From the IMG/VR virus record IMGVR_UViG_3300008120_000471, positions 1 to 20,562 of that record: DNA of 20,562 nucleotides, one strand, 5' to 3'. The notes below the pieces were generated by a model. It worked only from the letters and a program-made list of their open reading frames with translations. It searched no databases and was not told the origin of the DNA. Shown here in pieces: positions 1 to 19,637 of this stretch. Each line of letters starts with the position of its first letter. The stretch's first letter is position 1. The stretch comes from a virus. The translations under genes were made by a program, and so were the position numbers.

Positions 1-1650
1 AAATGGTTGAGTGCTGAATGCATCCCTGTATATATAGTCACCAACAACTGGGATGTCACCTGCTCCTTTATGATAAAGGACTGAATATAAAGGAGTTATT
101 AGACAAGCTGACGCTCCGTCAACTCCAAAGTTCTCGATGTCAATCAAGAATGGTTTAAACTTATTGTCAGCCATGACTGTGATATTTACTGTCTCAGGAG
201 CTGATGTCCCAAAACAATTTGTTGCTGTAAGCTCCAAGCTGAACTCACATGTATCAACAACTGTCCCTGAAAGTATACCTGTATTAAGGTCGAACGATAG
301 GCCGTTAGGAAGTATTGAAGAAAGACAAGGTCCGTTCAATGTAACAGTCCCATCACCTCCAACAACTATCGGAAGGGATGAAGAGCATACAACTCTTGAT
401 TCATTTATACTAACTGTAACATCTTGAACACCATACGTGCAGTCAGTCATGTTGAATACAGTACCTGTAGTACCTCCGAATAGTGTGTACTCATCACATG
501 CAGCAGTAACGCTCCATGATGTAGGATTATTTGTTGCTTCGAACTGTATATTTACTGCTTGGTTTCTGACAAGCGTTAAGTCTACTTGATTAATAACTGG
601 GTCAGCTACCTCAGCACAAGTACAAGAACCTTCTGCGTATACAACACCATTCTCATCTATAGCTACATATAGACCGACAGATGCTCCAGATATATTTATC
701 TGATGGTATGCATTGCCTCCATTAAAAAGTGCAGCACCTGATGCACTTGTATATATCCTGTTACCAATTGTAGGTAGTGCACCACTTCCGTCATGGAAGT
801 ATTTTGTTGATGGTACTTGAGCACATATATTTGTTATGTTACCATTTGTAGGATCAATAAAGAAATCTATAAGTGTTGGATCGACCCTAGTTGCTCCAAG
901 TCCATTACTATCTCTAGGTGCTGATATTAAAAGGTATGCATCTGGAACTGTAGAAAACTTATTAAATCTTAACTGCCCCGTACCATTGTTTACTAATCCA
1001 TTGTAAGGAAAGGAAAGATTTATATCGTCTGGGTCAACTCCTGCTGCTATAAGTGCATTATAATTGGCCAAGCTATTAAGTCCAACATATCCGCTATCTC
1101 CTACTATTACATTATTCCATTGCAACTGAAATCTTACAGGTCTAGTTAATGTAGAGTAGTCAACACCTGCTATACCTCTATTGGCACTATAGTCTATATT
1201 TACAATACGCTCTGTGTTCTTACCGCTATATGTTATAATACCCAAATCTAAGTTGTCAGTATAGTCCCATATAAGGTACAAGTTTGGCAAATCATCAGGA
1301 TTTGAGAATGTAAATGTTCCCTCCCATCTTTTTAATGGAACATTATATGTTACAGAAACAACTGTAGCTAAAGAAAGTATCGTATTCTTGTCGTTTGCAC
1401 CATAGTCAACATCTGTCACTAAGTAATAGATATTGTTATTCATATCAGGATCAAACTGCCTAGCATTTGTCTTTGGATCTGTATCAAAACCTGCAATTAC
1501 AGTAACAGTATCTCCATCAGATGGCATATAATCGACACCACCAATTCCAGTTCTACTATCAAACAATGCTATACCATTGCTAGGTATACCAATATTTGGT
1601 AACTTATATTCACTGCTTCCTGTATATGAGAATGCTTGATTTAAATTCAT
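1..1650 (-). CDS. Large tail/adhesin-like protein with Ig-like and repeated beta modules (partial, runs off left edge)
   Basis: An open frame of 550 codons starts at the ATG at 1650-1648 and continues past base 1, so the C-terminus is missing. The start overlaps the stop of the upstream muzzle gene as ATGA, which supports translational coupling. The protein is rich in G, N, T, S and D and poor in lysine, as in secreted or virion beta proteins. Near 173-330 it carries a segment of the putative Ig (He_PIG) type, with LPNGLSFD followed by NTGILSGT and a strand ending in TATNCFGTSAPETVNITV. Two copies of a motif of the form YH-x-G-x-G-x-x-P-x-x-G-x-x-IY occur near 620-815 and at 1-95, so the missing part probably has more copies. 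This repeat resembles modules of Bacteroidota surface adhesins (from memory). The role is inferred: tail appendage or receptor-binding protein acting with the muzzle protein. No catalytic motif was seen. Confidence 0.7.
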   Translation of the reverse strand, partial: MNLNQAFSYTGSSEYKLPNIGIPSNGIALFDSRTGIGGVDYMPSDGDTVTVIAGFDTDPKTNARQFDPDMNNNIYYLVTDVDYGANDKNTILSLATVVSVTYNVPLKRWEGTFTFSNPDDLPNLYLIWDYTDNLDLGIITYSGKNTERIVNIDYSANRGIAGVDYSTLTRPVRFQLQWNNVIVGDSGYVGLNSLANYNALIAAGVDPDDINLSFPYNGLVNNGTGQLRFNKFSTVPDAYLLISAPRDSNGLGATRVDPTLIDFFIDPTNGNITNICAQVPSTKYFHDGSGALPTIGNRIYTSASGAALFNGGNAYHQINISGASVGLYVAIDENGVVYAEGSCTCAEVADPVINQVDLTLVRNQAVNIQFEATNNPTSWSVTAACDEYTLFGGTTGTVFNMTDCTYGVQDVTVSINESRVVCSSSLPIVVGGDGTVTLNGPCLSSILPNGLSFDLNTGILSGTVVDTCEFSLELTATNCFGTSAPETVNITVMADNKFKPFLIDIENFGVDGASACLITPLYSVLYHKGAGDIPVVGDYIYRDAFSTQPF

Positions 1651-4600
1651 AATTTAATATCTTTATTTGATAGAACGTACCATATAATTCTTCCTTTCTT
1701 ACCTCTAGCTTGAGTAAGTATAAATTCTGCTGTAAGTCCATTACAGTACTCAACTACAAACTTAACTGTTCTATTTGCTGCCGTCAAGTTTTGAGCTACA
1801 GTAGCTGTTACATTCTGCGACCCTGTTCCTTCAGTAGGATAGTCAGTAACCCAAGATGTTCCGTATCCAGTATCTTCAAGGCTTAATGTCCAATCAAGTA
1901 TTGTGTTTATATTAAACAAAATATATCCAACAGGACCAACTCTAGTTACATTCAAGCTGTCTCTGCTAAGTGTCAGCATACATGGCACAACGCTCTGATT
2001 GTTTGTAGACAATACGTACATGTTATCATACGGGTCAAACGCTCCAATCTTCTGAGTTGTAGGATTGTCTTTAAGCAAATCTCTAAAGTAATCATTAAGA
2101 CCGAATGAAGATATCTCAGTTATAATCTGATTATTTAACTTCAATACAACACCTCTTCTAGCATCAGTAAAATAAACATTGTCACCAGTCTTAGCAAATG
2201 ACTCTGGGTTCCTACTGATTCCCCATTCTCCATTAACTGGTATTTGTGTACCAAGAACTTCAGGTATAGATACAACCTGACCACCACCAATAGAATCAAA
2301 CAATACATTCTTTCCGTATAGCACGTTTGATACCTTGTTTTCTTGGAATACAACTAAGTTAGTATCTGTTGCGTATAACTTTTGAATTGATCCAAAGTCT
2401 CTATCTAGATACTTAAAGTTAGATGTAGATAAATTGAATTCATTAAGTCTATTTAGTGCTGTGTTGAATTGAAATACACCACTATAACATATAGATGCCT
2501 CGTTTCTTATCTGTCTGTAGTTTTCTACAGGTGTCTGTACACGTACACTGAATCCTTTAGTGGTCTGATTGAAGTCATCAAATATACGGTCAGACTCTAG
2601 TCCGTTACCCCAAGACCAACCATTATTATCAGTGTTAAACGACATTGGCTTGTTTATCTCTATAATAGCAGGGACTGAAGGTCCGTTTTGGTCTTGCTCA
2701 TTAACTCCACTTAGAGATACAGTTCCAGGGGTTTCTGCTCCAGGTCCAGGAAATGTGAAATCTAATATAACTGAATATAAATCCTCTATACCATCAATTA
2801 TATATATTCCAGATGGCATTAATAAGTCATTTGATGACACAACATTTATAGAGTCTCCTGCATTAAAATAATGAGGCACAGTCTTGTCGAATTGTCTTAA
2901 TCTTGTTTTTCCAGCAAATGTTCCAGCTATTATAGCTTCATAATCGTCATAGTGCCATAATACTTGATGTTGTCCGTTTACAATTGGATATGTCTGGAAC
3001 AGCTCATGGTAAATATCTGAATCATCTTCAATAGGTGAAGTTTCACAAATATTTAAGTTTTCTTGTTGAGTTATTTCGAATGATACAACAAATTTACTTT
3101 GTGGTCTTCCTCCTGGAGGATATAAACCTGCCGCGAATGACAAATCACCTCCAGGATTATCAGGCATACTAGATCCAATAAACATCCTTATAGGATACTT
3201 TTTAGACTCATTGGTTAGTCCAGCTCCTGAAGGATCATAAAATTGAACTTGATTTACGTTAAATGTAGTATCCAATCCAGGGAAATATCCAAAATCTCTA
3301 CCTCTTCTGAACCTAACTCTAGACCCTTTATCATTGCCTCCATTTACATTGCTATATGAAAATAAATCTCTAGCACCTGACTCATACCACCACTCTTCTA
3401 TATTTTCATAATCTTGTGGTGACGGAGGAAATGTTTGCAATAGTTGCTCTGATCCACTTGGATTATAAGTATCTTCTTTAATTTGTATTTTTATTACAGC
3501 ACCTGTCAATATTTTTCTATCAGTTTCTGGTGTAGTATCGGACCAATTTGCACCTGGAACTATAGCTACAGCATTTCCTATTGATCTAGGATTAAGTCTA
3601 GTAAAACAATCTGTTGATCTGCAATTAAATATCCATTTATCTCCAACATTATATGTTGATTGATTAAATACAACCGTAAAGTAAAAAGCAATAACAGTAG
3701 GGATACCAGTAGAAATTGGTAGATTTGAATCTATTAATTGATTATAATTGGCAAATGAAAATAAGCTTATTGAATTTTTATATATAGAATATGTTGTTGG
3801 TGAATCAATTTGAATAGTTATTCTTACATCTTCAATACTATTGCTGAAAGTTGAACTATATAGATATATTCCACTTGGATCACTATTTCCATAATATATA
3901 GGATTATCAACATAATTAAAACCACTACTATCAAGTCCATCATTTTCTCTAAAAGGAAGTGGTGATATTCTTCCATTTGAACCATTATAATTGGTTCCAC
4001 CTATACCTGTAGAACTATAATTTTGTATTCCAGATCCTGATAATTCAGTAGAACTGTCTACCTTTATTTTAAAATATAACCCAGCAATCTCAGTGGACCC
4101 ACCTGCCAAAAAGTTTGCAGCTTTACTCTCTACCTCTAGTACTTTATATTTTTTATTTGAGTTTGTAGCACCTGCTGATGTTGATTTAAATATTACATAC
4201 TCACCAACATTTACTTTATTTACATCTGATTCGTTTATCAAGAAATATCTAAATAGACCATCAGAATAATAAAGTATTGGGAATACATTATAGTAAGACT
4301 TCTTGCTTTGCTTAACATATACACGATAGTGTGTAGCCCAACAAGGAGGTTCGTTCTTTATGCTAAGAACAAGAGTATTTGGAGTTGATGAATTTGCTGG
4401 TGGTACGAATATAGTACTATTTGTTCCATTTGTAGGAGTCGTAGGAGGGGCAGTAAGAACTGTGCTCATACGTCCATAGTCATCCAAATAAACTAATCCA
4501 ATCTCATAATCTCTATCAGATCTCCATGTTGATTTTGGATCAGCCTCAGTAGCAGCTACTGAAGGAGGATTTTTAACGCTTAACTGATAATTTATCTCTA

Positions 4601-5717
4601 CATCGTTACCAGTACAGTCAACGATATCTCTAAATTGAACATAGTTTCCGTATGCAACTCTGTTACCAACAACGTCTTGCGCTTTAGCAAGTAACGGAAC
4701 ATTATCATATAACCTTGTTACTTGGTCGTTTGGCAGTGCTGCATATACCTTGTTGTTATTAAATGTAATTGTGTACGAACCGTTATTTGGGATATCAAGT
4801 TCATTCTTTGAGAATGTATCAACTATGCCAACATTAATGTTTTTAGTATCACGCACAAATACTTGAATCTCTTCAACAAATTCATCACCAGTCTCAAAAC
4901 TAATTCTTATAGAGTTATAGAAGTTAGTCATTGACTTATTATTCCCTACACCATAGTCATACTCATACTCCTTTGGCATGAATGATACAGCAGAGAATGG
5001 GGACATTGCACTATACTGGTCATCAACATACTTATATCTATATGAGAAATATAAAAACTTCTCAGATAAGTTGTTTGTATCATTTACACTATCGTCATTA
5101 TAAAGAAAAATGCTAGGCGCAAAAAGTGGTGGTGCAAGAATTACATCTATATCTTTATCAATCCTAGGATCATCTACCTGATATCCTGACACACCACTTG
5201 GGTCAGATTTTACTCTAGTAATATTTATTCGTCTAGGTGGATTATAGTCGTCAGTCCAATATAAGAAATTATTCTCGTCATTTCCACGAATGAAGTTTAC
5301 TCCAGTAATAGGATATTCTTTTCTGAAGTTAAGTTTTGATGGAGTTGACGGAGTTGCCTTGTTAGATTGTAACACACGAACAGCTATACCTGTAGGTTCA
5401 TCATACTCGTATATACCATCAAATGTATCGCAAGCAACAAACCAATATATCTTATTGAATGCCTCATACTCTACTGCACCAATTGTCTTAGCTAATTCCT
5501 CAAATGTAATTGGATCAACTACTACACGACCAGATAACTCAGCAATACTTACAGCACGAGTGTTACCCATCTTATTCTTGGCAACACCTGCATCCTCACC
5601 CTTACTGACGTTAACATCAATATTTAATGCATCCCTGTACTGATTCTTTGGTATCAACCTCTCATCGAGGTCTTTATTCATTGAACCACTGATGAAGGTA
5701 TTATTAAATTCTGGCAT
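1647..5717 (-). CDS. Muzzle / tail stabilization-type protein (crAss-like), with C-terminal BACON-like domain
   Basis: This is a 1356-residue protein, the longest in the window. Its N-terminus carries MNKDLDERLIP (about 13-23) and YRDALNI (27-33), the signature start of the stabilization or muzzle proteins of crAss-like and flavobacterial podophages, which close the portal channel and form the short tail nozzle. The body is beta-rich with many N, S, T and Y residues and no transmembrane segment. Residues of about 1260-1337 look like a BACON domain: paired tryptophans in DWTLSLEDTGYGTSWV, then a G-rich turn, an NRTVKFVVEY strand and a final ILTQA. The middle of the gene (about 3300-4300) is clearly more AT-rich than its flanks. 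The gene starts 2 bases after the upstream neck gene and shares ATGA with the tail gene that follows. Virion location is inferred from the family. Assignment as muzzle is good, but the exact homologue (P22 gp10-like versus crAss001 gp44-like) is not provable here. Confidence 0.8.
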   Translation of the reverse strand: MPEFNNTFISGSMNKDLDERLIPKNQYRDALNIDVNVSKGEDAGVAKNKMGNTRAVSIAELSGRVVVDPITFEELAKTIGAVEYEAFNKIYWFVACDTFDGIYEYDEPTGIAVRVLQSNKATPSTPSKLNFRKEYPITGVNFIRGNDENNFLYWTDDYNPPRRINITRVKSDPSGVSGYQVDDPRIDKDIDVILAPPLFAPSIFLYNDDSVNDTNNLSEKFLYFSYRYKYVDDQYSAMSPFSAVSFMPKEYEYDYGVGNNKSMTNFYNSIRISFETGDEFVEEIQVFVRDTKNINVGIVDTFSKNELDIPNNGSYTITFNNNKVYAALPNDQVTRLYDNVPLLAKAQDVVGNRVAYGNYVQFRDIVDCTGNDVEINYQLSVKNPPSVAATEADPKSTWRSDRDYEIGLVYLDDYGRMSTVLTAPPTTPTNGTNSTIFVPPANSSTPNTLVLSIKNEPPCWATHYRVYVKQSKKSYYNVFPILYYSDGLFRYFLINESDVNKVNVGEYVIFKSTSAGATNSNKKYKVLEVESKAANFLAGGSTEIAGLYFKIKVDSSTELSGSGIQNYSSTGIGGTNYNGSNGRISPLPFRENDGLDSSGFNYVDNPIYYGNSDPSGIYLYSSTFSNSIEDVRITIQIDSPTTYSIYKNSISLFSFANYNQLIDSNLPISTGIPTVIAFYFTVVFNQSTYNVGDKWIFNCRSTDCFTRLNPRSIGNAVAIVPGANWSDTTPETDRKILTGAVIKIQIKEDTYNPSGSEQLLQTFPPSPQDYENIEEWWYESGARDLFSYSNVNGGNDKGSRVRFRRGRDFGYFPGLDTTFNVNQVQFYDPSGAGLTNESKKYPIRMFIGSSMPDNPGGDLSFAAGLYPPGGRPQSKFVVSFEITQQENLNICETSPIEDDSDIYHELFQTYPIVNGQHQVLWHYDDYEAIIAGTFAGKTRLRQFDKTVPHYFNAGDSINVVSSNDLLMPSGIYIIDGIEDLYSVILDFTFPGPGAETPGTVSLSGVNEQDQNGPSVPAIIEINKPMSFNTDNNGWSWGNGLESDRIFDDFNQTTKGFSVRVQTPVENYRQIRNEASICYSGVFQFNTALNRLNEFNLSTSNFKYLDRDFGSIQKLYATDTNLVVFQENKVSNVLYGKNVLFDSIGGGQVVSIPEVLGTQIPVNGEWGISRNPESFAKTGDNVYFTDARRGVVLKLNNQIITEISSFGLNDYFRDLLKDNPTTQKIGAFDPYDNMYVLSTNNQSVVPCMLTLSRDSLNVTRVGPVGYILFNINTILDWTLSLEDTGYGTSWVTDYPTEGTGSQNVTATVAQNLTAANRTVKFVVEYCNGLTAEFILTQARGKKGRIIWYVLSNKDIKL

Positions 5718-5719
5718 AT

Positions 5720-6628
5720 CTATTTAATTATTTTGTCCTTACCTCTCAGCACCATAATAAGTCTAGATGCATGTATATTTGAAAGTCTAAGTTTAGCATT
5801 TCTTAATTTTGCCGTCTTAGCGACCTGCGCTCTTCTAATTATATATTCTTGAATTCCATACTTGTTGTCAAGTATAGCCCACTTGATATATGCATATATG
5901 TAGTCCTCAGCTAACTTGTTTATAGTAATAGCGTCATCATTACCATTCTCCATGCCGTCAGATATGTACTCAATGACAATCAATTGATTCCTAACTCCAG
6001 AACTGAAGTCAATTACACCTGCTGCTCTATTTACAGTAAAGGTAGGATTTACGTTTGCTGTATCGGTCTGTAGACCGTAACGACTACCAATGTTATATCC
6101 AAAGTACCAATTCCCATTGTAAGACCATCCGTAGTATCCGTTAAATGTGCCTGGTCCAAAGTACTGCTGCTGTTCACCTCTCCTTATATCTAGAACTGAT
6201 TCACCCGTAAGAACCTCTCCGTCTAAGTCAAATAATATGTTTTGATTATTATCTTGTAAGTATGCAGTAGCTGAGTTAGCACTTAGATTCTCATGTAATG
6301 GATATAGTACGCCCTCAATGTTTACAGATATTCTTACGTAGTTAACATAATCTGGAGGCATAATCAACTTAAGATTATCACCCATTTGGATCTCAATAAT
6401 CTTAAAGTTTCTAAGGGCATCATAAGTTATCTCTTGAATACCTCTCTTAGCATGAAATATAACCTCATGTCTCTTTACGTTGTTAAGCAACTTATCGTCA
6501 CCTATGTTCATCAACATGAAGTTGTTTACAACATCATCCATAGATACAAACTGATAAGAACCCCAATTTAAATTATTTGGAGTGTTACCATTATTTGTAT
6601 AGTACTGAAGATTATTTATATATGCCAT
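5720..6628 (-). CDS. Neck/ring protein (head-tail connector), putative
   Basis: A 302-residue soluble protein between another neck-type gene and the muzzle gene, with gaps of 3 and 2 bases, so it is clearly part of the same operon. The N-terminal half is helical with HEVIFHAKRGIQEITYDALR (about residues 54-73), typical of the adaptor or ring proteins that sit below a portal. The middle holds an aromatic and glycine-rich stretch (GYYGWSYNGNWYFGYN, about 164-179) that looks like a surface loop. The C-terminal third is basic and helical. In crAss-like phages several ring proteins stack between portal and muzzle and are encoded just upstream of the muzzle gene, so position and fold pattern both suggest one of these. 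I cannot say which ring (R1 to R4) it matches. No enzymatic motif is visible. Confidence 0.6.
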   Translation of the reverse strand: MAYINNLQYYTNNGNTPNNLNWGSYQFVSMDDVVNNFMLMNIGDDKLLNNVKRHEVIFHAKRGIQEITYDALRNFKIIEIQMGDNLKLIMPPDYVNYVRISVNIEGVLYPLHENLSANSATAYLQDNNQNILFDLDGEVLTGESVLDIRRGEQQQYFGPGTFNGYYGWSYNGNWYFGYNIGSRYGLQTDTANVNPTFTVNRAAGVIDFSSGVRNQLIVIEYISDGMENGNDDAITINKLAEDYIYAYIKWAILDNKYGIQEYIIRRAQVAKTAKLRNAKLRLSNIHASRLIMVLRGKDKIIK

Positions 6629-6631
6629 ACG

Positions 6632-7366
6632 TTAAAGTTTTTTCTGTGAGTCCTTAGTCTCTTCTGCATCCATAAGCTGAACGACATCATTCTCACCGAT
6701 AGACACGCCAGCATACTGTAATATCTTAAGAGCTAACTCTGCTGAATCACTAAGAGGCAACTCAAAGTCTTGATAGTCAGCAGCTGACTGATTAAATACA
6801 GGCTCACCACCTGCTAGAACTTGCCATGTCCATTTAGGATCAAATGGATGTCTTACGTAACTCATAACTACATTACTTGTAATTGTAGTTGGATAAACCT
6901 GTATACTTGCATTTGATGAGTTGTAGTCATTAAGCGTGTATACTGGATACTTAACTGTTGGTGCAGTAAGGTTAGAGTTAACTAAATACAATATCTTATT
7001 GAATGCTACCTTCTCTATTTCTGTTGAATTGTTATATGTAAGTCTAATTGCATGGTACTGCTTAGGTGTAAGTAAGTTATCGTCTCCAGGTGCAAAAAAC
7101 TTACCAGATCCAGAGTCATATCCTAATGCCAAGTCAACTAAAAATCTATCTATAACTTCACCCAATCTTTCAGGTATGTTTGAATATCCTGAGTTATCAA
7201 GTCTAGCGTTTTGTTTATTTATATGATTGCTGTAATCGTAGAAGTATTGTTCGAATATCTCAAGTTGAGCCTGTCTAGCGAATAGATTGAACTCCTCTGG
7301 AGTAATATACCCTCTATTGTCCTTGCTCAATACAGCCAATACCGTATTTCTAACTTCATTTATCAT
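6632..7366 (-). CDS. Neck/ring or tail-completion protein, putative
   Basis: A 244-residue protein whose N-terminus reads MINEVRNTVL, then KDNRGYITPEEFNLFARQAQ (about 15-34), a start that is strongly conserved in the neck region of Bacteroidota podophages and followed here by an aromatic FEQYFYDYSNH helix. The segment resembles an EF-hand loop in wording but lacks the acidic spacing for calcium binding, so I do not call it one. The gene opens the last operon of the window: a TAnnTTTG box lies only four bases before the ATG and an intrinsic terminator lies just before that, so its mRNA may be leaderless. It is followed after 3 bases by the 302-aa ring-like gene. The function is inferred from its place between the capsid and muzzle genes. 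Confidence 0.6.
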   Translation of the reverse strand: MINEVRNTVLAVLSKDNRGYITPEEFNLFARQAQLEIFEQYFYDYSNHINKQNARLDNSGYSNIPERLGEVIDRFLVDLALGYDSGSGKFFAPGDDNLLTPKQYHAIRLTYNNSTEIEKVAFNKILYLVNSNLTAPTVKYPVYTLNDYNSSNASIQVYPTTITSNVVMSYVRHPFDPKWTWQVLAGGEPVFNQSAADYQDFELPLSDSAELALKILQYAGVSIGENDVVQLMDAEETKDSQKKL

Positions 7367-7370
7367 AGTG

Positions 7371-7378
7371 CAAAGATA
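7371..7378 (-). promoter_or_regulatory. Bacteroidota -7 promoter box, start-proximal
   Basis: On the minus strand the bases read TATCTTTG, matching the TAnnTTTG box of the primary sigma factor of Bacteroidota. Only CACT separates the box from the ATG of the 244-aa neck gene, which places the expected transcription start at or next to the A of the ATG. A -33 TTG at ideal spacing is not evident, and the upstream bases are taken up by a terminator hairpin. Confidence 0.65.
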
Positions 7379-7380
7379 AT

Positions 7381-7410
7381 AAAAAAAGGGTCAACAATGT
7401 GTCAACCCTC
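7381..7410 (-). terminator. Weak intrinsic terminator after the 97-aa gene
   Basis: On the minus strand GGGT-TG-ACA, a CAT loop, TGT-TG-ACCC can fold as a stem broken by one 2x2 internal loop, and it is followed directly by seven T. It lies 24 bases past the stop of the 97-aa gene and immediately upstream of the promoter box of the next operon. Both arms are flanked by A and T runs, so it could work in both directions. The internal loop makes it weaker than the terminator after the capsid gene. Confidence 0.55.
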
Positions 7411-7434
7411 TTTTAAGCTTAATAGCTAAAACTA

Positions 7435-7728
7435 TTATGCAACTGCAATACCAGAAACTGCGTAAGGTAGATTTGCTACTTCATAAGCAACAGCATACCA
7501 AGGAGTCTGCAATGCAGCAACTACTGCGTCTTGAATAGCATCACGCATAGTCTCGTCTCCTGCTCCAGCAGTAGCGTGAGTAATTGTGATTACATCTGTA
7601 CTAGTACTTCCACCTTTATAAGCGATAGTAACTGTACCTGTAGTAGCTTGCTCAATTAGAACGATTCCAGTAGCAGAAACAAGTTGAAACTGCTCACCAG
7701 TTACAGGGATTTTTAAAAACTTCTCCAT
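7435..7728 (-). CDS. Small capsid-associated (decoration or fibre-like) protein, putative
   Basis: A 97-residue protein starting MEKFLKIPVTGEQFQLVSATG, with an alternating beta pattern (VLIEQATTGTVTIAYKGG) and then a short helix (MRDAIQDAVVAALQ). It is small, nearly neutral and rich in A, T and V, with no signal peptide or membrane segment. It has its own TAnnTTTG promoter box and an A-rich leader with a run of 11 A, and it is closed by a hairpin terminator. That makes it a short, separately controlled unit, as expected for an abundant virion protein. Similar short proteins are common beside capsid genes of flavobacterial phages (from memory). I infer a head decoration or auxiliary capsid role, but no motif proves it. 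Confidence 0.5.
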   Translation of the reverse strand: MEKFLKIPVTGEQFQLVSATGIVLIEQATTGTVTIAYKGGSTSTDVITITHATAGAGDETMRDAIQDAVVAALQTPWYAVAYEVANLPYAVSGIAVA

Positions 7729-7761
7729 GTCTTTTTATTTTTTTTTTTGGTTAGTAAAGTA

Positions 7762-7769
7762 CAAAGATA
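7762..7769 (-). promoter_or_regulatory. Bacteroidota -7 promoter box for the 97-aa gene
   Basis: Minus-strand TATCTTTG fits TAnnTTTG and lies in the 48-base gap between two genes. The predicted transcript would have a leader of about 30 bases containing 11 consecutive A before GACATGG, in line with A-rich translation starts in Bacteroidota. No clear -33 element is seen. Confidence 0.6.
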
Positions 7770-7776
7770 TAAAATA

Positions 7777-8511
7777 TTATGCTTCGTATTCTTTAGTTAG
7801 GAATATATAGAAATCTTGCCCATCTTCAGATTGCATCCATGCAGATAATGCACTCTCAGCACTCTCTCCCATAGGTACAGAGAACATTCGTTTTTTGTTG
7901 TCTTTTAAGTTGTAATGAACATCACGACCACCATTTCTAACCGATACATATCCATCCTTGATTGCTCTGAAGGCCATGTCATCTACCGCTAGTTCTGGGT
8001 CATTAATTGCATTCATGAACTCCTCAGTGTAGTTTTCAGCAATATTCATCACCTCCCACTTAAGTTCATTTAATGACATCTTTTCAGTATTCTTTTCAGT
8101 AAAGATTCTTATTATAGATGCCATCTTGTCAGGACTCAATGATCGTGCCTCAATCTTAGCATCAAGAATTAAGTTCTCCATGTTAAGTTTTTCCTCAGCA
8201 TCCTTAGCAGGATCCCATTCGTAGAATACATCTCCATTGCTTGGGTGTAAACTTAAGAACTCATAAAGAACTGGATTTGTGTCTGGCACTGTAAGTACCC
8301 CATCTTCAAAGATAATCGGCTCTAAAATAGAGTTCTCATCTTGCTCATCTTGAAATGGTGACGTTTGATTACTTGCATATCGCAGACTGCGATTTTTCTT
8401 TTTCTCTTCATCGAAGTGTAGTAGTCTTCTAGTAGGAAGATCTCTAGATTGAAGAATAAATGATACTGGTGATTTCTTGCTATTAAGCAAGAATGTTCTT
8501 GTTGTTTTCAT
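7777..8511 (-). CDS. Conserved capsid-region protein of unknown function
   Basis: A 244-residue, acidic, mainly helical protein directly downstream of the major capsid gene. Recognisable blocks are LQSRDLPTRRLLHFDEE (about 21-37), a serine/glutamine-rich linker SLRYASNQTSPFQDEQDENS, then IFEDGVLTVPDTNPVLYEFL, and a C-terminal end DGQDFYIFLTKEYEA. Proteins with this layout are often found beside the capsid gene in Bacteroidota phages (from memory), but I know no assigned activity. The basic N-terminus followed by an acidic body could fit an inner capsid or capsid-assembly partner, which is inference. It starts right after an AATTAAAATCAA leader and follows a strong terminator, yet no good TAnnTTTG box lies in the gap. 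It may therefore depend on read-through from the capsid gene or on a divergent promoter. Confidence 0.6.
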   Translation of the reverse strand: MKTTRTFLLNSKKSPVSFILQSRDLPTRRLLHFDEEKKKNRSLRYASNQTSPFQDEQDENSILEPIIFEDGVLTVPDTNPVLYEFLSLHPSNGDVFYEWDPAKDAEEKLNMENLILDAKIEARSLSPDKMASIIRIFTEKNTEKMSLNELKWEVMNIAENYTEEFMNAINDPELAVDDMAFRAIKDGYVSVRNGGRDVHYNLKDNKKRMFSVPMGESAESALSAWMQSEDGQDFYIFLTKEYEA

Positions 8512-8534: not shown

Positions 8535-8570
8535 AAAAAAAATAGAGAGGGACACTGATGCCCCTCTCTA
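8535..8570 (-). terminator. Strong intrinsic terminator after the major capsid gene
   Basis: On the minus strand a perfect 9-bp stem TAGAGAGGG / CCCTCTCTA encloses a 10-base loop and is followed by eight T. It begins 8 bases after the capsid stop codon. This is the clearest terminator in the window and marks the end of the scaffold-capsid transcript. Confidence 0.9.
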
Positions 8571-11240: not shown

Positions 11241-11554
11241 GATCCTTTTATCCATTTCTTACTTGGTGAAGAAGTCTTACTAGGACTCCACTTAACTTTG
11301 TCTGCCCAGTAAGCAGCTGATAATTTTCCTTTTGATATATTCTTTGCGTGTCTACTTTTGAATGCCTCACGTTGTCCGACAGTCTGATTAGTCTTTACAC
11401 CTTGCTGCCCGAAATGAATTAATTTATAAACTCCATTTTCTGAAGCCATGACAACATGACTTTTATTTGGATTATTTGGAGTTTTTTTAGGATTATTAAC
11501 GGATTTTAATCCATTTTTGTCCATTATTGATTTTACTCTACTTGGTATAGCCAT
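11237..11554 (-). CDS. 105-aa basic conserved phage protein of unknown function
   Basis: A basic protein with the blocks SHVVMAS (about 32-38), KLIHFGQQGV (44-53), FKSRHAKN (65-72) and SAAYWADKVKW (79-89). This pattern of HFGQQGV followed by RHAKN and AAYWA-KVKW recurs in small proteins of many tailed phages (from memory), but I cannot name a proven function or a family accession. The invariant aromatic and histidine positions suggest a folded domain that is more than a DNA-binding tail. The first 22 bases of the gene lie inside the end of the HNH gene in another frame. The end overlaps the 34-aa gene as ATGA. Location between portal and scaffold suggests a head-related role. Confidence 0.7.
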   Translation of the reverse strand: MAIPSRVKSIMDKNGLKSVNNPKKTPNNPNKSHVVMASENGVYKLIHFGQQGVKTNQTVGQREAFKSRHAKNISKGKLSAAYWADKVKWSPSKTSSPSKKWIKGS

Positions 11555-12114
11555 TGGTACATTTTTTTAATGTGTTCTTTAAAATCTTTAAAATCTAAAT
11601 TGCTTTTTGCTCTATTGCAATATACACAACACGGGACACAATTATTAACTGTATATCCTTTATTAGTATCAAATCTATCTACTCCAGTAAAATATATTTC
11701 ATAATCAGATGGGTTTACATTTGGAGAATCTTTTTGAAGTGATGGAGCATTGGATATACAATCCCATTTTTTAGGATTAGATCCGCAATAAAAACATTTT
11801 TGTGTAGAAATTTTACAAAAATCATTATAATCTAATTCCCATGAAAACCCTCTTTTTTTAGCTCCATTAATATATCCACTCATTCGGCTTTTAATAGATC
11901 TTCTTTGTTTAGAAGTGAATCCAAATTCATCATATCCGCATCCACATGTTTTTTGATTTTTTATAGCTGAAAATTTCCAAAATCTTTTAATTGAACCACA
12001 TTTGCATATGCAATCATAAACCTTATTTTTACCTACTAATAAAGTTTTGTCAATTACAAAATGACCAATAATATCACCACTTTTTACAATTGGTGATTTA
12101 ACTTTATCTTTCAT
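11533..12114 (-). CDS. Free-standing HNH endonuclease (homing-type), zinc-binding
   Basis: A 193-residue protein with an N-terminal cysteine cluster (CICKCG at about 35-40 and CGCG at 57-60) that probably binds zinc, and a C-terminal HNH-like core: CFYCG (107-111), GVDRFDTNKGYTVNNCVPCC (144-163) and YCNRAKSN (165-172). The pattern DR-D-N-KGYT-NN-V-C--CN--K is that of phage HNH nucleases, and the two CxxC pairs likely hold the structural zinc. The gene is more AT-rich than the packaging genes around it. It sits between two tiny genes of a tightly packed operon, with ATGA overlap at its start and a 22-base overlap at its end, so it looks like a mobile selfish insertion that did not break its neighbours. 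It could also assist packaging, as some HNH proteins next to terL do, but it lies downstream of the portal gene and resembles the homing group more. Confidence 0.85.
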   Translation of the reverse strand: MKDKVKSPIVKSGDIIGHFVIDKTLLVGKNKVYDCICKCGSIKRFWKFSAIKNQKTCGCGYDEFGFTSKQRRSIKSRMSGYINGAKKRGFSWELDYNDFCKISTQKCFYCGSNPKKWDCISNAPSLQKDSPNVNPSDYEIYFTGVDRFDTNKGYTVNNCVPCCVYCNRAKSNLDFKDFKEHIKKMYQWLYQVE

Positions 12115-18203: not shown

Positions 18204-18635
18204 CTAGTATACTCTAATTTCTATATATTGGTCTTGTCCAAGGCCATCTGTCAGTACATCATTCTGATAGACATTAAATGTAACTACATCTGAACTTGTT
18301 TTCGTGAATGCAATCCTTACATCAGTAGCACTAACCGCAGATAGCCCTGCTATAGTAGTAACATTACCAACAAAACCATTAATCAATGTGGCTGTATAAA
18401 TACCCGCAGATGATCTAGCCCAAACAAGTGGACCAATAGTGTTAGTACCAACGATAGTAGGAACTGGTGCGTTAGTTCCTGTCTGGGTCATAAAAGCTCT
18501 ATACACCTTACATCCTGCAAGCTCTGCTACATCTCCAGCTGAAACATTCTTAGTAGCTCCACTGATTCCGTCAGAGGCAAGTATCCTGTCATTTATTCTT
18601 ACTGACTCTACTGAGTAATTGTTAATTTCTCCCAT
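18204..18635 (-). CDS. 143-aa fibre or decoration-like structural protein
   Basis: An N-terminal linker of about 40 residues (NYSVESVRINDRILASDGIS, then TKNVSAGDVAELAG) resembles the start of phage fibre proteins. It is followed by a beta domain (CKVYRAFMTQTGTNAPVPTI, LVWARSSAGIYTATLINGF, ending QYIEIRVY). This C-terminal domain also occurs fused to other phage structural proteins (from memory), so the gene looks like a two-module protein. No enzymatic motif is seen. It has its own promoter box only four bases before the ATG, which predicts a leaderless transcript, and it is separated by 19 bases from the 81-aa gene before it. The role is inferred from composition and from the neighbouring lectin-like and fibre-like genes. 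Confidence 0.55.
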   Translation of the reverse strand: MGEINNYSVESVRINDRILASDGISGATKNVSAGDVAELAGCKVYRAFMTQTGTNAPVPTIVGTNTIGPLVWARSSAGIYTATLINGFVGNVTTIAGLSAVSATDVRIAFTKTSSDVVTFNVYQNDVLTDGLGQDQYIEIRVY

Positions 18636-18639
18636 AGCA

Positions 18640-18647
18640 CAAAGATA
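18640..18647 (-). promoter_or_regulatory. Bacteroidota -7 promoter box, start-proximal
   Basis: Minus-strand TATCTTTG, with TGCT between the box and ATGGG. The spacing to the start codon is the same four bases as at 7371-7378, again predicting transcription start at or next to the ATG. Confidence 0.65.
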
Positions 18648-18654
18648 ATTAAAA

Positions 18655-18900
18655 TTAATTTATTGGAGGGAATGGTGGTGTAGTGACTTCAAAATCTGTA
18701 GGATTCCCTAATACTATTTTCAATGATTCATCAAATGTGATGTAATAAAAGATAGGTGTATCCAAATTAGCAGTTTGATATTCTACCCAATTCTGTGTAA
18801 CGTCATCAGGTGCTACAGGAATGCCGTAGTAAGTATCACAAGCCTCTCTAGCATTAATTGCTTCTTGCTCTGTATTGTATTTATATCCGTTTATCTCCAT
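18655..18900 (-). CDS. 81-aa small protein of the fibre cassette, unknown function
   Basis: An acidic protein starting MEINGYKYNTEQEAINAREA, continuing CDTYYGIPVAPDDVTQNWVE and ending with a proline-rich VTTPPFPPIN. Its ATG overlaps the end of the lectin-like gene by one base, so it is coupled to it. Small acidic proteins with a helix containing an N-x-E-E-A pattern followed by CDTYYGIP and an FYYI-FD strand are found after fibre genes in related phages (from memory). A fibre-assembly or fibre-capping role would fit, but nothing in the sequence proves it. No signal peptide or membrane segment is present. Confidence 0.6.
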   Translation of the reverse strand: MEINGYKYNTEQEAINAREACDTYYGIPVAPDDVTQNWVEYQTANLDTPIFYYITFDESLKIVLGNPTDFEVTTPPFPPIN

Positions 18901-19637
18901 TAGTAGATTGAATAGAATGTGTTAATGTTTGTGTTTATTGATGAATAAGAACCATTATTTTTCTGTACATATCCATTTGTGGCATCATAATATTGAGAAA
19001 ATAATGAATATGGAGTTGGTTTACTTCCCGATATTGCTACACTACTTGTAGAATTATTTATAGTAAATTGTCCAAAACTAGGTGAACCATCTCCTAAATT
19101 GCTATTTCCTCCATTAGCATTTGAGAAGTCATCACCTGAGCTTGGAGCATAACTTATCACACCTCTATATGAACCAGATGAAGTTTCTTTAATAACATAA
19201 AAATGTGACCTTTTGTCTAATCGTATTAACCCAGTTGTAGTGTTTTGCATATAGGTTGCAGATGCGCCATCAAACTGAATACAAGGCTTTGAATTTTCTT
19301 TTATTATAGTTCCACTTGATACAATCTTAGGCTGATTGCCAGCGGTAGATTGAGTTTGATTTTTCCCGTTTCCGCTTTGGTCGTACCAAGTAGTTACAAA
19401 TCCATTACCAGCACCCACAAATGTGGTAAGTGCAGATTCATCTAATAAATTGCTTCCGTCATATCCTATGTCTTGCTCTGTATTATCACTTGACCTTCTT
19501 ACTCTAATAAGTGAGCCAGTATATGTAGAAGACAATCTTCTTGCAGCAGAATAAGCTAAAGCAGCACCTGAATAGGTGTCAAGCAATCCAGTGAATGCTG
19601 GCACACCTGGCTGCACTAAATATGGATTGATTATCAT
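18900..19637 (-). CDS. Lectin-like (AbfB/concanavalin-type) module protein, probably shortened
   Basis: A 245-residue protein with the signature of the arabinofuranosidase B catalytic-domain-like, concanavalin-type fold: GLLDTYSGAALAYS (17-30), RVRRSSDNTEQDIG (45-58) and VTTWYDQSGNGKN (81-93). In phages and Bacteroidota this module usually binds carbohydrate in tail fibres and is often not enzymatic. I see the fold markers but cannot confirm catalytic residues. It ends in NINTFYSIY, the usual terminus of the module, yet the region just before it appears shorter than usual, with GYVQKNNGS running almost straight into the end. It overlaps both neighbours (ATGA upstream, one base downstream). 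The likely role is surface-glycan binding by the virion. Confidence 0.7.
   Translation of the reverse strand: MIINPYLVQPGVPAFTGLLDTYSGAALAYSAARRLSSTYTGSLIRVRRSSDNTEQDIGYDGSNLLDESALTTFVGAGNGFVTTWYDQSGNGKNQTQSTAGNQPKIVSSGTIIKENSKPCIQFDGASATYMQNTTTGLIRLDKRSHFYVIKETSSGSYRGVISYAPSSGDDFSNANGGNSNLGDGSPSFGQFTINNSTSSVAISGSKPTPYSLFSQYYDATNGYVQKNNGSYSSINTNINTFYSIY

Follow-up and report, generated by a model that had tools for sequence, protein, structure and literature searches.

The DNA analysed here, hereafter the window, comprises an entire virus record (G000; 20,562 bases) from a phage of Bacteroidota-type hosts and encodes a muzzle protein of the Crassvirus type (PF25731). On its minus strand lie three consecutive genes of a putative tail operon. 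The first (6632–7366) encodes 244 amino acids (aa) and matches phrog_14543, which is annotated as 'virion structural protein'; together with its predicted structure, this match suggests a tail-barrel ring-like virion protein. It is followed after 3 nt by a gene for a virion structural protein of 302 aa (5720–6628; phrog_13977) and, another 2 nt downstream, by a gene for a muzzle-like protein of 1356 aa (1647–5717; Pfam crAss_MUZ, PF25731; phrog_14478). The AlphaFold model of the first gene product was built from 20 sequences and is of moderate confidence (pLDDT 71.2, pTM 0.57), with chain 7qoj_D as its best structural match (Foldseek E 1.4e-4; VIA-align Z 10.5, rmsd 3.8 over 185 residues). The predicted model has the fold of a crAss-type tail-barrel ring protein, as found in phicrAss001 (PDB 7qoj), but the identity to these proteins is only about 10%, and a sequence-profile search of the PDB with the first gene returned no chain up to E = 1. 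Five stacked rings and a muzzle are mentioned in an excerpted review (PMC10136315). On the basis of the model, the genes are best described as an operon for a tail-barrel ring and a muzzle, to which the term 'neck operon' of the initial annotation came close. The nearest named records for the first gene are flavophages, among them Maribacter phage Panino, Elemovirus and Callevirus phi38:1, with at most 47% identity. Elsewhere on the minus strand, an ORF flanked by the portal and capsid genes (11533–12114) has PHROG matches to endonuclease VII and HNH proteins, and another (18900–19637) matches Pfam ArabFuran-catal (PF09206, E 4.8e-10) and possibly encodes a glycan-acting part of the virion.

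Directly in front of the ring gene, the minus strand reads, from 5′ to 3′, TATCTTTG (7378–7371), the four bases CACT (7370–7367) and the start codon ATG (7366–7364). The octamer is an exact match to the -7 element of Bacteroidota sigma-A (sigma-ABfr) type promoters, TAnnTTTG or TAHHTTTG. The TTTG element at -33 of the older sigma-ABfr consensus is absent from this site, where the -33 position falls inside a hairpin stem (see below) that is wholly different in sequence among three related loci (L001, L004, and L005). We do not treat this element as defining, because it is not evident in Flavobacterium johnsoniae either: its promoters have no clear -33 motif but AT-rich tracts upstream, as stated in the excerpt of the study consulted (PMC6847099), and the window site resembles them in both respects. 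TAnnTTTG words are frequent in the window, with 42 occurrences on both strands compared to 22.9 (sd 4.9) in dinucleotide shuffles, none of which reached 42 (0/100). Five copies of TATCTTTG are on the coding strand, four of them in front of gene starts (gaps between box and start codon of 4, 33, 4, and 16 nt) and one within a gene. A sigma-70 type candidate overlapping the site (TTGACA, 18 nt, TATTAT; 7405–7376) was rejected, since 67 such hits were found where 73.4 are expected, and since its TTGACA forms part of the hairpin stem and is not retained in L004 or L005. A search with the pattern TTTGNNNNNNATG was uninformative.

To follow the box through related viruses, IMG/VR was scanned for relatives of the ring gene and the best 80 of 298 loci were kept. 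Together with the window and seven named phage records (six isolates and one environmental genome, MW202828) these make up a set of 88 rows. All 80 of the IMG/VR loci (best 80 of 298) have an exact TATCTTTG upstream of an ATG aligned with residue 1, and thus share with the window the start codon expected of a leaderless mRNA. A TAHHTTTG box precedes the ring gene in each of the 88 rows, in the variants TATCTTTG (84 rows), TATATTTG (3), and TAACTTTG (1). The homologous genes of Elemovirus, Callevirus (phi38:1, Calle_1), Maribacter phage Panino, and other flavophage records are therefore all located behind such a box. TAnnTTTG is a short, AT-rich consensus of which 22.9 copies per window are expected, so that a chance match has to be considered; its presence in 80/80 relatives (best 80 of 298) and the enrichment of 4-nt gaps over permuted octamers (see below) reduce this explanation to a negligible probability. 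The initial annotation had called a promoter at 7364–7378, and both this range, which is exact to the base, and the promoter call itself are strongly borne out.

The box is fused to a second element. Immediately upstream of it the minus strand can form a hairpin of 15 pairs with a loop of three bases (7382–7414), followed by a run of seven Ts (7381–7387) that ends two bases before the box. The segment 7379–7425 folds with -16.2 kcal/mol (z -5.46), and none of 200 shuffled sequences was as stable. A stable, G+C-containing hairpin with a subsequent T-run is the signature of an intrinsic terminator, whose U-tract would here also provide the AT-rich spacer that precedes the box. By inspection, a hairpin abuts the box in 83 of the 88 rows, the exceptions being L049, L316, L321, L322, and L010, which has no sequence at this position; of the named records, elemoF, phi38:1, Calle_1, and MW202828 have a terminator-like hairpin in front of the box. 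L001, L004, and L005 share no stem sequence, yet all three stems fold, and the loci differ little or not at all in box, spacer, and gene start. Host sigma-A promoters differ from this arrangement, as the window box is only 4 nt away from the ATG and directly behind the U-tract of a terminator. When sites were collected by a T6 pattern (see below), a stable hairpin was found in front of 36/54 viral but only 18/88 bacterial sites (Fisher p 5e-8; among the matches listed, for two sets not matched by host). Another strong terminator in the window (8543–8570, minus strand; 12 pairs, then T8) precedes the 244-aa gene at 7777–8511. It is not followed by a TAnnTTTG box in the window, while TATCTTTG occupies the corresponding position in elemoF and MW202828.

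Intrinsic terminators can leak, and the genes upstream of the hairpin are codirectional with the operon and have another TATCTTTG at 7769–7762. The operon might thus be expressed mainly by read-through from upstream late promoters, which would give the box a minor role and most transcripts a leader. We consider this unlikely, because a stable hairpin with a T-tract intervenes and is retained in 83/88 rows (by inspection) even where the stems are unrelated, because the box is kept in 88/88 rows, and because a read-through mRNA would carry the stable hairpin 15 nt before its AUG. The terminator may nevertheless leak, and would then add leadered read-through mRNA to the products of a promoter at the box.

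The hairpin also marks the point at which related genomes diverge. Between -20 and +40, each 20-base step of L004, L005, L008, and L009 agrees with the window at 19–20 positions. Between -40 and -20, however, only 5–9 of 20 positions agree, which is near the level found further upstream. In the window, the element is preceded by a cargo gene of 97 aa (7435–7728, minus strand), whose transcription the terminator is predicted to end and which some close relatives lack or have exchanged for other genes: L004 has genes of 104 and 222 aa instead, and L009 has none, its ring gene directly following the 244-aa gene that is the counterpart of 7777–8511. Since the upstream genes and the stem differ while the sequence from box to ATG is kept, the junction of hairpin and box borders an exchangeable cargo slot. 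Different small genes, or none, occupy this slot between the 244-aa gene and the ring gene, in the window (7367–7776) as well as at the equivalent position in L004, L009, L316, and L321.

The distance between box and ring gene falls into two groups. Short gaps of 4, 5, and 7 nt were found in 30, 5, and 17 of the 88 rows, respectively, and longer gaps of 14 (24 rows), 15 (2), 16 (1), 17 (4), 18 (1), 19 (1), 21 (2), and 31 nt (1) in the remainder, whereas gaps of 0–3, 6, or 8–13 nt do not occur in any row. The long class (14–31 nt) accounts for 36/88 rows and includes all seven named phage records. Elemovirus, Callevirus, Panino, and the other named flavophages, with gaps of 15–31 nt, thus differ from the window in being leadered. 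A leader is therefore tolerated or even preferred elsewhere, and a leaderless start at the ring gene would be a trait of a clade rather than a requirement. In a tree of 40 representative rows, the window is one of 19 that form a supported clade (97/90), and 18 of these 19 have a gap of 4 or 5 nt. The exception is L010 with a gap of 17 nt, whose contig starts at the box; its ring gene (L010:1–60) is 93% identical in protein but has a different N-terminal end, so that it is probably a recombinant or reflects a contig-edge effect. The tree requires at least three changes between short (≤7 nt) and long gaps. At a constant length of 4, the spacer differs in its bases (CACT, CATT, CAAT, TGAT).

The significance of these gaps follows from the spacing known for flavobacterial promoters. 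The box of F. johnsoniae promoters lies at -12 to -5, transcription starts 4–5 nt beyond it, and 87% of predicted leaders are longer than 10 nt (excerpt of PMC6847099). Applied to the window, this spacing predicts that transcripts begin with the A of the ATG (7366) or, alternatively, with the U at 7365, and CACT (7367–7370) would remain untranscribed; by the same reasoning, the 7-nt gap of 17/88 rows predicts leaders of 2–3 nt. In the window and the 80 loci (81 sequences), 10 of 42 non-redundant TATCTTTG sites near ORFs have a gap of exactly 4 nt, compared to 2 of 216 near-ORF sites for 60 permuted octamers (Fisher p 2.5e-7). Gap classes of 0–3, 4–5, 6–7, 8–13, and ≥14 nt were then counted in four sets. 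The phage loci, again the window and 80 loci with 50 non-redundant near-ORF TATCTTTG sites, gave 0, 15, 3, 1, and 31 sites, respectively. A viral sample of IMG/VR stretches, chosen by T6-NN-TATCTTTG with any gap of 0–30 nt (80 listed of 120), gave 0, 16, 4, 2, and 32 (54 sites among the matches listed). Bacterial contigs selected by the same T6 pattern, a sample that retains some non-Bacteroidota records, yielded 0, 6, 1, 11, and 70 (88 sites among the matches listed). Finally, 800 kb of one flavobacterium, searched with TAHHTTTG, gave 7, 21, 5, 13, and 250 (296 sites). The excess of gaps 4–5 over neighbouring gaps has binomial p-values of 3e-7 in the flavobacterium, 9e-10 in the viral sample (among the matches listed), and 5e-10 in the phage loci; as sites and rows are related by descent, p-values here are optimistic and overstate independence. 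In the phage sets, the gaps mostly form two classes, 4–7 and ≥14 nt, with almost nothing between them. Gaps of at most 7 nt account for 20/54 viral but only 7/88 bacterial sites (p 4e-5, among the matches listed; the two sets are not matched by host), and in the flavobacterium most boxes (250/296) are, unlike the window box, at least 14 nt away from the ATG.

The absence of gaps 0–3 is what a start 4–5 nt past the box would lead to, because at such distances the AUG would be left untranslatable. This bears on the idea that initiation takes place further downstream, inside the gene, so that the transcript lacks the AUG. Start sites can scatter by a few nucleotides, and the 4–5 nt spacing would allow a start at +2, the U; yet 4 nt is the smallest gap in the phage samples (0/50 sites, and 0/54 among the matches listed, at 0–3), as expected if the AUG remains translatable, and the N-terminus of the ring protein is conserved from residue 1, with M1 and I2 invariant in 20/20 sequences. 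Downstream initiation thus appears very improbable. An exclusive use of ATG was considered as a further mark of leaderless genes but is not a clean one, as TTG is present at gaps 4–5: the phage sites have 29 ATG, 12 TTG, and 0 GTG, and the host sites 19, 3, and 1, respectively.

The share of gaps 4–5 in the flavobacterium, 7% (21/296), fits the 5.5% leaderless transcripts among 890 mRNAs of F. psychrophilum (excerpt of PMC9723704), and in Bacteroides about 3.7% of 5′ UTRs are shorter than 10 nt (excerpt of PMC7366714). The 5′-terminal AUG predicted here resembles these leaderless mRNAs as they are described in the parts of both studies consulted, but concerns phage virion genes, is fixed within a clade, and belongs to a viral sample in which short gaps are more frequent (20/54 vs. 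7/88, among the matches listed). We do not claim the trait for Crassvirales at large, since two model crAss phages show no gap-4 site, either among the 10 near-ORF boxes in the first 50 kb of phi14:2 or among the 14 in the first 50 kb of crAss001; the single gap-5 site in these stretches is found in crAss001, inside the terminase gene.

The spacing argument presupposes that the box is read by the host enzyme. If the box were instead read by a polymerase or sigma-like factor that the phage encodes, the start-site spacing could be different and the leader lengths of F. johnsoniae would not apply. Such a factor would be in line with the strong preference for TATCTTTG at the ring gene (84/88 rows) and with the virion RNA polymerases that crAss-like phages carry according to the review excerpt mentioned above (PMC10136315). 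According to the same excerpt, however, it is probably the host RNA polymerase that transcribes late crAss-like genes; in addition, the box conforms to the host consensus TAHHTTTG, and the flavobacterium genome likewise shows an excess of gaps 4–5 and few gaps of 0–3; we therefore give a phage-specific factor little credence.

Taken together, we consider it likely that the site is a compact intrinsic terminator fused to a leaderless sigma-A type promoter, which insulates and restarts the tail operon. In this late-gene switch of about 51 bp, the terminator would, as its conservation suggests, end transcription arriving from the upstream cargo gene. A host RNA polymerase of the sigma-A type would then bind TATCTTTG as its -7 box, with the U-tract serving as the AT-rich upstream spacer, and would initiate 4–5 nt past this box, at one of the first two bases of the ATG, as published spacing and gap statistics indicate. 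The genes for the ring protein, the second structural protein, and the muzzle would be translated from a 5′-terminal AUG without a leader. A leaderless start had also been proposed in the initial annotation, and the F. johnsoniae spacing, the missing gaps 0–3, and the peak at 4–5 nt in the phage samples speak for it; that account was not wrong but incomplete, as it covered neither the fused terminator nor the variable upstream slot nor the restriction of the short gap to a clade.

Each part of this element is already known; new is the conserved fusion of terminator and leaderless promoter. Among titles and the beginnings of abstracts, with most subscription journals outside the scope, we found no description of leaderless promoters in phages of Bacteroidota. 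Bacteroidota ribosomes hardly use Shine–Dalgarno pairing, and to our knowledge little is known about how phages of this phylum secure high late expression. The element suggests a means by which such phages shield an essential operon from an adjacent slot with exchangeable genes, and, being conserved in tail genes, it offers a natural and compact test case for leaderless translation in Bacteroidota. From the two-class gap distribution follows the general prediction that leaders of about 4–9 nt are avoided. It is conceivable, if rather doubtful, that these phages maintain a discrete leaderless class of virion genes, set apart from a leadered one, which would be translated late via a 5′-terminal AUG, with insulation from built-in terminators and perhaps with an advantage from ribosomes or initiation factors in a state altered by infection.

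Gaps of 4 nt recur in front of genes other than the ring gene. In the family phrog_18548 (239–264 aa), which is unrelated to the ring gene, each of the 18 copies that carry a box no more than 60 nt away has a gap of 4 nt, a count that excludes box-less copies and in which several of the 18 are near-identical. Their boxes are TATCTTTG, TAAATTTG, or TAACTTTG, their upstream sequences are diverse, and no terminator is visible before any of the 18. The window itself contains a second gap-4 site (18633–18647, minus strand; TATCTTTG TGCT ATG), with no terminator listed in front of it, that precedes an ORF of 143 aa. This ORF has no PHROG match, and its one relative, in L317, is weak (27.5% identity) and has no box within the 50 nt inspected. 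With a gap of 33 nt, the 97-aa cargo gene is leadered in the window, but among its relatives the gap is 4 nt in 11 loci (TATATTTG TTGT ATG) and 7 nt in 3. Its A/T-rich leader in the window (7728–7769, minus strand), consisting of the box, a stretch like TACTTTATTAACC, and the ATG, recurs in many relatives. In the cultured Flavobacterium phage elemoF 6-3D, whose host is Flavobacterium sp. BAL314 and whose ring gene has a gap of 19 nt, a gap-4 box (TATCTTTG caat ATG) is also present, in front of a gene of 135 aa (phanotate85; L317:21070–21084).
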